Shown: positions 59,737-64,000 of the stretch, in pieces
Layout of the letters: every line of letters begins with the position of its first letter
Position numbering within the stretch: the stretch's first letter is position 1
DNA from: Phaeodactylum tricornutum CCAP 1055/1
Taxonomy: Eukaryota; Bacillariophyta; Bacillariophyceae; Surirellales; Neidiaceae
Direction of reading: 5' to 3'
Assembly: GCF_000150955.2 (NCBI RefSeq)
Contig: NC_011669.1
Coordinates: forward strand, 1,432,993 to 1,496,992
Length of the DNA: 64,000 bases
Made by a program: the position numbers and the translations under genes
The notes under the pieces: model-generated
Databases searched by the model: none
Told to the model about the DNA's origin: nothing
What the model saw: the letters and a program-made list of their open reading frames with translations, nothing else

Positions 59737-62295
59737 CTAGGCCACCACACCTTCCCGTTTCCAGAATCCGGCATCAGGGTACATAGGGACAACATCGGGA
59801 ACCTTGAATGAGGCACCATCGAGCCACGGAAACTGAGCAGAACGAGACGTCTCGAACAAGGAAATTTTCTCATCTTTGGCGAGCGTCAACCCGATCTTAT
59901 CCAATCCGTTGACCAAGCAATCCTTTCGAAACTCATCAATTTCAAACGAAAACTCGTCACCATTGGCACAGACGACCTTTTGGTTGATCAAATCGACCGT
60001 GATCTCTGTTCCCGGAGTACCAGCATCCTCGAGCAGAAACTCCACTTGATCACGTGGAAGTGTCACTGGAAGCATACCATTGTTGAAGCAGTTGTTATAG
60101 AAAATGTCGGCAAAAGAAGTGCTGATAATGCAGCGAATTCCCATGTCGTTGATGGACCACGGAGCGTGTTCTCGACTTGATCCACATCCAAAGTTATCAC
60201 CAGCTATGAGAATCTTCGTGCTTTCGTATCCCTTCTTGTTCAAAATGAAGTCGTCACGAAGTTTTGCAACTTCTTCTCCAATCGTGGCAACTTCTTCAGC
60301 ATTTTCGTACCGAAGTTCAGCAAAAGCAGCAAATCCAAGACCGGAACGCTTAATAGTCTTGAGAAATTCCTTAGGAATGATCATATCGGTATCAATGTTC
60401 TGAATATCGAGAGGAGCCGCAACACCCGTCAGCGAGTTAAATTTGGGAAGGCCAGCACTATCGGCTGTGCCTTTGATTTCAGCATCTAGATTCTCGAGGT
60501 ATGGAGCCGGGGGCGAAATAACTGGACCAGGAGATACAAGCTCTTCGGTAGTAAAGACGCGACTCTTGGAGTTGGAAGCCAAACGAGGGTCGGCCGACGG
60601 ATCGCCAAGAAACGGGAATTTTCGAACGTCAGAAATAACTCCGCTAACAGCAGCAGCAGCGGCCATTCCAGGCGACATCAAGTGAGTCCTTCCGCCATTT
60701 CCTTGCCGGCCTTCGAAGTTGCGATTGGAAGTAGAAGCGCAGCGCTCTTGAGGTTTGAGTTTGTCTGGGTTCATGGCTAAACACATACTGCATCCAGGTT
60801 CACGCCAGTCAAAGCCGGCTTCGATGAGAATCTTGTCAAGACCTTCCTCTTCCGCTTGCTTTTTGACTAAACCAGATCCTGGAACGACCATGGCATCAAC
60901 GCCTTCGGCAACTTTGCGTCCCATGGCAATGGCTGCAACGTTACGAATATCCTCAATACGACCATTGGTACAAGAACCGATAAAAACCTTTTCAATCGGG
61001 ACACCCTCGAGAGGCTGACCTTCTTCAAGCCCAATGTATTGCAAGGATCGCTTGATAGCATTCTGTATAGAGGGTGGCAAAATGTGAGAGGAAGCCGGTC
61101 ATCGACCTTTTCAAAAGCCGCAGTGGTCTTACCTGCCGAGAAGCATCATGTCCTTCCGCCTGAATCATCGGAACATTTCCGGTAATGGGAGCAACGTCCT
61201 GCGGACTGGTGCCCCACGTAACGGTGGGAGCGATATCTTTCGAATCAATAACAATAGTTTTGTCGTAGACAGCACCTTCGTCAGACCGGATTGAGTCCCA
61301 ATATTTGACAGCCTTCTCCCATTCTTCGCCAGATGGGCACATCGGGCGTCCCTTTAAATATTCGTAGGTTGTATCGTCGGGAGCAATGATGCCAGCGCGC
61401 GCTCCAGCTTCAATGGCCATGTTTGAAATCGACATACGCGCCTCCATAGAGCAACTCTGAACAGCTGTACCTCCAAACTCTATGGTGTATCCAGTACCCC
61501 CGCCAGTTCCAATAACTCCAATGATATGAAGAATAATGTCCTTGGATGTGACACCGTCACCAAGCTCTCCGTCGACACGGATAAGCATGTTTTTCGTCTT
61601 GGTCTGTGCAAGAGTCTGTGGCAAAGAGTAGGCGAAACATGGATGAGAGCACAATAAGTGACGTAGATAAAGTCAGAGCACATGCAAAACTATCGTACCT
61701 GAGTAGCGAGAACGTGCTCTACTTCGCTGGTTCCAATTCCAAACGCTAAAGCACCGAATGCGCCGTGAGTTGCGGTATGCGAGTCTCCGCAAACAGTCAC
61801 ACACCCTGGTAAAGTAAATCCTTGTTCAGGACCAATAATATGAACTATTCCTTGCCGCTCGTCCGCAAAGGAGAAATATTTGAGACCAAAGTCCTTAATA
61901 TTCTGTTCAAGCGTCATAACTTGCGTACGACTCGCAGTCTCTTCAATAAAAGTAGCAACGTCAATGAGACCGGTACGATCGGCCGTAGGGACATTGTGGT
62001 CGACTGTGACCAACGTGCAGTCCGGGCGACGAACTCCACGTTTTGCTAAACGAAGGCCCTCAAAAGCCTGCGGAGACGTAACTTCATGCACCAAATGGCG
62101 GTCGACGTAGATTAGAAAAGAGCTACCATCGTCGTCGACCATATGATCATCCCAAATTTTGTCGTAAAGAGTTCGGGGCCCAGCCGCAAATAGACTCGAT
62201 GGAACCGGGCGGAATGCCGCATTCCGAGCATTGGGTACAAAGGCCACGGTATTCGCTAAAAGCAGGCAGAACGGTAACGATCCACTAAACCTCAT
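59737..62295 (-). CDS. LEU1/leuCD: Plastid-targeted 3-isopropylmalate dehydratase, fused large and small subunits
   Basis: Exons are 62295-61699, 61615-61133 and 61062-59737, introns 83 and 70 nt, all phase 0. The product is 801 residues. A single chain, as in fungal Leu1, isomerises 2- to 3-isopropylmalate in leucine synthesis. The leader [17 protein letters not shown] ends at [11 protein letters not shown], a plastid import signature. The large-subunit region has [28 protein letters not shown] and the 4Fe-4S cysteines in GCSMCLAMN. The small-subunit domain follows, with [12 protein letters not shown] and [18 protein letters not shown]. The chosen ATG lies 126 bp inside a longer frame and is favoured by the leader. 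Confidence 0.93.
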
Positions 62296-62709
62296 TGTGC
62301 TTATCTTCTCTTGTATGCTTGCAAATCCTCCGAAGAACAAATGTGTGTGATGTCTCTCTCGTGTTGCGGTTGGTCCTCTGCTTTGGAAGCGCCCGAGATC
62401 CAACGACTGGATAAATACCACTGTATACAGAGAAACTGCAACTACCTAATTGGTTGGGATGCGACGGACGGACGATTCAAACTTGTCAACCGCAGCCACG
62501 CAATAGACAACATTTGCGTTGGATCTTTCAAATACAAACGAGAGCAACTATGGTCGGTCAACCTACGGACCAAAACTAGGAGCACGCAGACAAGAGAAGC
62601 CATGACATCTATTATTGGAACGAGTCGAGCGAAGGTACATAAATTCCAAGGCTTTGCAACAAATACGCTAGCATTGCTGCACTTGTCACTGACAGAGCAA
62701 GGCAAAATT
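62296..62709. other. Intergenic region between the isopropylmalate isomerase and GGQ genes
   Basis: 414 bp; the promoter side of the isomerase and the 3' side of the GGQ gene. Frames here show no family resemblance. Confidence 0.3.
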
Positions 62710-64000
62710 TTAAACATTATCAGCCTCCTCGCGCTTTCGTTGCCGAGCTCTATTTCGTGCCTTGGTTTTGGACTTTTTGGAGGCAGCCTTCTGCTTCTCT
62801 AGATTACTTTTGCTTTGATTGCCATTCAAAAATTCGTCTAATTTGGCACGCAGCCGCTTCCTTGCGATCTTGCGGTTTTGTTGGAGAGACCGAGTATCTT
62901 GGCATTCCACACGCAGCTGAGTCGGTCCGTGCAGAAGCGCCACCTTGTTGGAAGTTTTGTTAGTCTTCTGGCCACCCGGACCAGATCCACGAACAAATGT
63001 CTCCGTCAAATCATCTTCATTGAGCTCGGGAAGTTCTCTCGCAGTATAAACTTTCTCCTTTTTGCCTTCGGCCGCCGTCAGCTCCATCGCAATCTCAGTC
63101 AAAATCATGGGACGGAGCTCGGAATCTGGAAGAAGCGCAACCAGCTCCGACAACATATCGAGAGCTTTATAGTCACTTGATGGAATAAGAGCAGGGTCTA
63201 AGCTTGTTGATGGCTTGTCCCGGGCGGTCTTGAAAAGATTAAGCGCCTTGTGCACGTATCGTTCCACTTCAATTTTGATCGACACCTTTGGGTCCGCTAT
63301 TTTAATTTGTAAAGAAGAAGAGAGGGCCTTTAGCGCTACAAAGCTTTCGGGTCCCAAGCAGCGTCGAATACGCTCCGAAACTTCGGCTTGTTGTTGTCTA
63401 TTCCATTCCTGTGCATCGTCTCTTTGGCGTTTCCATACTTCGTACTCTTTCATCACCTTCTCAATCCCCCCACTGCCAAATACGAGGTCAAGACGCTTTT
63501 CGCGGTCCCACACGACTTGTTCGCGGAACTTAATGGCAATAATGCGGTGCTCAGGTAGAGCATCTACTAAAGTCGTAGCTGTTCCTGAGATTGAATCGTT
63601 TGGCGCATCCATTCGAGACTCGATAATTGCATCGTCCACGCGATCGAAATGCAATATATAGAAGTCTGATGGCGACAGTAGATGGTCGTACTGCACTCGT
63701 CGGAGCACCTCAGATGCAGGTATCTTGGCTTGGGAATCCTCAAGTAGACAAGTTTTGTGCTTTTTACATTTGTCGGCAAAGAGACGTTCATACGCCGGAC
63801 TCCGGACGTCCTTCAGCTTTGACAGCCGCGCTTCTACTCCCCGCAATCCTCTTCCCAATAGGGAAGCTATTGAAGCAGTAGACTCTTGCCGATTTTCCCA
63901 CAATAGCTGATCCTGTTCCAGTGACCATTCTCGATAAAGGTTGGCCATTGGCTCCAAGGATCCAGGCGATCCATCTCTCCTTCGATCTGCATCTCCAACC
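62710..64000 (-). CDS. GGQ release-factor-type protein with SANT-like and MJ1316/DUF504 domains, partial 5' end
   Basis: At least 429 residues; the frame stays open to the window edge, so the start may lie outside. The first visible ATG in frame is at 63948. From the N-terminus: a SANT/Myb-like segment (REWSLEQDQLLWENRQE, then LGRGLRGVEARLSKL), and a DUF504/MJ1316 domain (VLRRVQYDHLLSPSDFYI, then LPEHRIIAIKFREQVVWDRE). A helical spacer follows, then the peptidyl-tRNA hydrolase motif GGQ (62968-62976) in RGSGPGGQKTNKTSNKVALL, and a basic tail (QQNRKIARKRLRAKLDEF, then KSKTKARNRARQRKREE). The GGQ module plus a basic C-terminus fits ribosome-rescue factors such as ICT1/ArfB and C12orf65. DUF504 has been predicted to recognise 2',3'-cyclic phosphate RNA ends. 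Together they suggest a factor linking damaged RNA ends to stalled-ribosome release; this is inference. Confidence 0.8.
   Translation of the reverse strand, partial: VGDADRRRDGSPGSLEPMANLYREWSLEQDQLLWENRQESTASIASLLGRGLRGVEARLSKLKDVRSPAYERLFADKCKKHKTCLLEDSQAKIPASEVLRRVQYDHLLSPSDFYILHFDRVDDAIIESRMDAPNDSISGTATTLVDALPEHRIIAIKFREQVVWDREKRLDLVFGSGGIEKVMKEYEVWKRQRDDAQEWNRQQQAEVSERIRRCLGPESFVALKALSSSLQIKIADPKVSIKIEVERYVHKALNLFKTARDKPSTSLDPALIPSSDYKALDMLSELVALLPDSELRPMILTEIAMELTAAEGKKEKVYTARELPELNEDDLTETFVRGSGPGGQKTNKTSNKVALLHGPTQLRVECQDTRSLQQNRKIARKRLRAKLDEFLNGNQSKSNLEKQKAASKKSKTKARNRARQRKREEADNV

Follow-up and report, generated by a model that had tools for sequence, protein, structure and literature searches.

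An MJ1316 domain joined to a C12orf65-like release factor domain in Phaeodactylum tricornutum: a candidate organellar ribosome-rescue factor

Proteins resembling C12orf65 which are fused with an MJ1316 domain were described in 2019 by Burroughs and Aravind (PMC6514570, section 2.5 and Figure 4C), and the passages on this fusion, which name no species, propose that peptide release is coupled to organellar RNA repair. The binding of 2',3'-cyclic RNA ends by MJ1316 is a prediction from the literature, cited in passages of the same paper. There the bacterial PrfH-RtcB system is also dealt with, in which a GGQ factor is tied to RNA repair, as is likewise proposed for the protein treated here. Human C12orf65 (MTRFR, mtRF-R) works with MTRES1 on the split mtLSU carrying peptidyl-tRNA, as stated in passages of a review (PMC8786322). 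The gene of Phaeodactylum tricornutum examined in the present analysis encodes a protein with the same pair of domains as the published fusion, and a like function is proposed for it. Both the fusion architecture and the main way of interpreting it are thus in print in the cited section of PMC6514570, at variance with the original prediction, which had known of no described system of this form. What is added by this analysis is a tested family placement and two observations on this genome: RtcB has no match in it, and only one C12orf65-like gene was found.

The gene lies on the minus strand at the end of the window, that is, the whole stretch of 64 kb that was analysed (C1:1432993-1496992, on contig C1 of 2,535,400 bases); the genome searched comprised 27,450,724 bases in 88 contigs. 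Within the window its frame is uninterrupted by stops from 63999 to 62710 (429 codons plus the stop) and it runs for a further 98 codons beyond the window end, yielding 527 open codons in total (L003:803-2386). With an E-value limit of 1, a Pfam hmmscan of the window protein gave two families, and each of them exceeds its curated cut-off. Residues 94-166 (63502-63720, minus strand) match MJ1316 (PF04457, formerly DUF504) with 42.7 bits against a cut-off of 26.3 and an E-value of 9.5e-11, and residues 325-421 (62737-63027, minus strand) match the RF-1 peptidyl-tRNA hydrolase domain (PF00472) with 77.6 bits against a cut-off of 35 and an E-value of 9.5e-22. The GGQ catalytic motif, residues 342-344 (62968-62976, minus strand), is intact. 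Searches of the whole genome with the two families recovered both domain positions of the fusion gene, and besides these two no further Pfam family was found in the 527-codon frame at E up to 10. A chance domain match was rejected, as both profiles score well above the cut-off. The original calls of a DUF504 domain and of an RF-type GGQ domain, joined in one frame, are thereby confirmed.

The possibility that an accidental open frame merges two neighbouring genes was examined with a codon-usage score for which 14 long frames from the window served as training set. All blocks from codon 97 to codon 527, and hence also those of the interdomain linker, scored 0.098-0.147, the bodies of the training frames reaching 0.063-0.151 when each was left out for its own scoring. 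In a 40-codon scan the frame outscored the five other frames in 20 of 25 windows; the five failing ones start at codons 1, 21, 41, 61, and 441, the last of these inside the RF domain. The coding signal running through the linker argues against two genes, as do the 527 codons free of stops and the independent publication of a fusion of this type (section 2.5 of PMC6514570). Two merged genes are therefore very improbable, even though the 5' end is not clear and the frame was judged from genomic sequence.

Five methionines at codons 37, 51, 61, 97, and 116 of the 527-codon frame are candidate starts, Met116 being encoded at 63946-63948 of the window (minus strand). Scans for the N-terminus and for splice sites near the 5' end settled no single start, and a 5' exon upstream is possible. 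Codons 37-96 score -0.061 and show no coding signal. The leader counted from Met51 lies in this part; it is basic, with seven lysines or arginines and one aspartate or glutamate in 45 residues, and resembles a mitochondrial presequence. After the candidate starts the highest 15-residue mean of hydropathy is 0.85, and no strongly hydrophobic signal-peptide core is found there. Lacking coding signal, the basic leader is at best a candidate targeting peptide, which counts against an organellar factor. That the factor serves the plastid or the cytosol instead of the mitochondria would be compatible with the unfixed start, the lack of coding signal in codons 37-96 and the possible 5' exon, and the genome holds at least one RF1 gene with a leader that looks plastid-type by eye. 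We regard it as improbable, since those C12orf65 relatives whose structures have been solved belong to mitochondria and no strongly hydrophobic core of a signal peptide is seen.

Upstream of the MJ1316 domain a helical region is predicted for residues 16-83 of the window protein (63751-63954, minus strand). AlphaFold2 modelled it as one long helix (16-65) and a second one (68-83) at low to fair confidence, block pLDDT being 46-82 in the model of the MJ1316 half and 48-87 in that of the whole window part. The original prediction had seen a SANT-like start here; codons 97-200 gave no Pfam match up to E 10, SANT/Myb included, so that this part of it found no profile support. Between the two domains lies a middle region without assigned family (residues 167-324; 63028-63501, minus strand), which is predicted and modelled as helical, with fair confidence in its first part only. 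Its best Pfam E-value, for a piece of it, was 0.086, and no match was above cut-off.

The release factor half was placed by comparison with PDB sequences, of which 59 matched up to E 10, closeness being taken by E-value. Human C12orf65 (7a5h_C, E 1.4e-24) was matched best, together with one of its homologs (2rsm, E 2.9e-20), followed by the weaker matches to RF2 (E 6.8e-10), PrfH (E 2.1e-6), and ICT1 (E 0.19). The NCBIfam cut-offs for RF1, RF2, PrfH, and ArfB were all missed. A codon-recognition domain is absent by Pfam (527-codon frame, E up to 10), and in an alignment with the other release factors of the genome, as well as in the structural model, the alpha-i insert is absent from the fusion gene, unlike the ICT1-type gene of the same genome. 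Absence of this insert is named as a feature of C12orf65 in a passage of PMC6514570. With human C12orf65 the protein shares the GGQ domain and a basic C-terminal helix (residues 391-429; 62713-62829, minus strand; 13 lysines or arginines and four aspartates or glutamates in 39 residues), and both are devoid of the codon-recognition domain and the alpha-i insert. The human chain of 166 residues aligns with residues 410-520 of the query only, in its C-terminal part; MJ1316 and the helical regions are additions in the protein studied here. By its sequence the release factor half is C12orf65/MTRFR-like and not ICT1-like; the original designation as ICT1/C12orf65-like, with a basic tail, stands for C12orf65 and for the tail and falls for ICT1.

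When the whole window part was modelled with AlphaFold2, blocks beginning with residue 331 reached a pLDDT of 88-96, except for the block of the GGQ loop with 69, and the C-terminal helix 372-428 is modelled at 90-96. Foldseek against the PDB returned the RF-domain fold, 36 of the matches having an E-value of 0.001 or lower. Of the 50 matches listed, the two C12orf65 entries show the highest identities (54% and 50%); by E-value they rank 15 and 18, with several RF1/RF2 entries above them, which is a point against the reading as a C12orf65-type factor.

Membership in two other rescue families was considered and rejected. With ICT1/ArfB the protein has in common that both are small GGQ rescue factors with a basic tail. 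It differs from them in the E-value of 0.19 to ICT1, in an ArfB score of 35 bits, far below the cut-off of 100, and in the missing insert; moreover, ICT1/ArfB is represented by another gene of this genome. The PrfH model scores the fusion gene with 47.5 bits, the cut-off being 166.65.

Searching the genome with the RF-1 family yielded five matches out of six scored candidates. By the best NCBIfam model the other four are an RF1 on contig C9 and an ArfB/ICT1 on C10, both over cut-off, and an RF1 on C28 and an RF2 on C14, both under cut-off. The fusion gene is the only C12orf65-like one among the five matches, a count in which genes split by introns may be missed. The RF1 gene on C9 (L005:718-1950) has a leader which by eye looks like a plastid signal/transit peptide.

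For the MJ1316 half two alignments point in different directions. In an alignment of six sequences, made of the window domain, four bacterial domains, and the second MJ1316 gene of this genome, nine columns are invariant, those of P.HR and VWDR among them, and the window domain conforms at all nine. In an alignment of 36 sequences, drawing on 35 of 80 bacterial MJ1316 loci (L063, L123, and L130 were left out), five columns are nearly invariant, and the window domain deviates at three of them, where tryptophan is replaced by tyrosine, isoleucine by leucine, and tryptophan by glutamate. The corresponding release factor alignment (A8) draws on 19 of 51 RF loci, the same three being left out. AlphaFold2 gave a block pLDDT of 81-96 over the MJ1316 domain, with one block at 66. 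A solved relative of MJ1316 was not found in the PDB by sequence with a two-sequence profile, and in Foldseek the model of the MJ1316 half had 161 matches with E-values up to 10, of which none reached 0.001. The prediction that MJ1316 recognises RNA ends reportedly goes back to a 2016 paper on RNA repair. A first scan of the genome-contig collection for MJ1316 gave no relative. The second MJ1316 gene of the genome is located at G000:C11:154233-154463 (L004:1611-2078, plus strand), in a frame of 155 codons where MJ1316 is the sole Pfam family to exceed its cut-off.

The altered columns would fit a protein in which MJ1316 is a generic anchor to RNA or ribosome which does not sense ends; the protein would then be a C12orf65 of the usual kind to which one module has been added. 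On split large subunits, for example, MJ1316 might replace the contact made by MTRES1, the partner with which human mtRF-R is paired on the split mtLSU in the passages cited from PMC8786322. The nine columns kept in the six-sequence alignment suggest on the other hand that a specific function has been retained, and most of the bacterial MJ1316 loci examined link the domain to RNA-end enzymes. We consider a mere anchor possible but on the unlikely side.

The bacterial context of MJ1316 is best seen in a plasmid of Calothrix brevissima (AP018209.1, L018:2495-5228), where one protein, annotated as RNA 2',3'-cyclic phosphodiesterase, contains MJ1316 together with EEP (endonuclease/exonuclease/phosphatase), 2H phosphoesterase, and poly(A) polymerase domains. 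It is likely an RNA-end repair machine on a conjugative plasmid. Bacterial multidomain proteins of this kind share the conserved MJ1316 residues with the window domain and differ from it in the partners, which are phosphatase, 2H, and poly(A) polymerase domains there and a release factor here. Eighty bacterial MJ1316 loci were collected, the best 80 of 342, one being the query record itself; as they were chosen by their match to a bacterial query, they do not represent the MJ1316 family evenly. The MJ1316 reading frame also matches the Calothrix 2H domain in 70, the EEP domain in 69, and the poly(A) polymerase domain in 67 of these 80 loci. In the loci examined MJ1316 thus mostly sits with RNA-end enzymes, which supports a link of the fusion protein to RNA ends. 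An RF domain was found in none of the 80 at E up to 1, the same profile finding 51 of 51 RF loci as a positive control. There is therefore no bacterial parallel for the fusion in this set, which counts against that link.

Which enzymes might take over a broken RNA was approached through the repair families of the genome. RtcB had no match here and matched nine of 14 control genomes. A partnership like that of PrfH with RtcB therefore looks unlikely, and the repair partner of the fusion protein is probably not RtcB; the lack of an RtcB match is also a point against the coupling of rescue to repair, and it would suit a protein in which MJ1316 only anchors. AKAP7-type 2H was also without match (two of 14 controls matched), which does not favour a hand-over to repair. 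KptA/Tpt1 has one match in the genome, the RtcA family two, and the 2H phosphoesterase family 2_5_RNA_ligase2 three. The Trl1-type ligase domains PF08302, PF09511, and PF08303 matched neither this genome nor any of the 14 controls, hence this result is uninformative.

The leading reading of the protein is that it rescues ribosomes and has a link to damaged RNA, the sensing of ends by MJ1316 being a prediction. In its fuller form, to which we give an even chance, the protein would be an organellar, probably mitochondrial, rescue factor of the C12orf65/MTRFR type whose N-terminal MJ1316 domain serves recruitment to cut RNA or hand-over to repair. Its kinship with C12orf65 suggests that it frees peptides stalled on organellar ribosomes. 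The factor would act where tRNA or mRNA is damaged or missing and has brought these ribosomes to a halt. Its GGQ loop would hydrolyse the peptidyl-tRNA, and the basic tail may help to anchor it on the ribosome, as in its relatives. MJ1316 would recruit it to ribosomes whose RNAs end in a 2',3'-cyclic phosphate made by a ribonuclease, or alternatively would hand the broken RNA to repair enzymes. Independent authors came to the same reading in the cited section of PMC6514570.

A more specific version, which we put forward tentatively and hold to be rather unlikely, has a damage-gated organellar factor. On ribosomes that are stalled or split, its MJ1316 domain would bind the 2',3'-cyclic end of a tRNA or mRNA cut by a nuclease and so license hydrolysis by GGQ; the broken RNA would then go to RtcB-independent healing with 2H phosphoesterase, a ligase, and Tpt1. 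If so, rescue and repair would form one chain in a lineage devoid of RtcB. The literature searched yielded no experiment on whether rescue in organelles is coupled to the detection of cut RNA or to its repair. The fusion gene offers a concrete test case for the published idea that rescue and repair are coupled, and the missing RtcB match narrows which repair route is to be considered. Phaeodactylum tricornutum is a laboratory diatom that can be transformed.

A viral source of the fusion gene was looked for and found no support. Pattern scans of viral contigs with the MJ1316 alignments, the RF part, and the whole window protein, which reach close relatives, gave no confirmed relative. In tblastn searches of phages (45 records) and plasmids (82 records) the window protein had partial matches only, none covering 80% of the query; among the 15 matches listed for each set coverage was at most 21%, and most of the annotated ones are prfA or prfB. 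The upstream neighbour of the fusion gene, beyond the window end, is a frame of 428 codons (L003:2890-4176, minus strand) with a long tandem repeat rich in alanine, glutamate, and lysine. Downstream, at 59737-62445 of the window (minus strand), three frames by eye contain parts of the large and small subunits of 3-isopropylmalate dehydratase.
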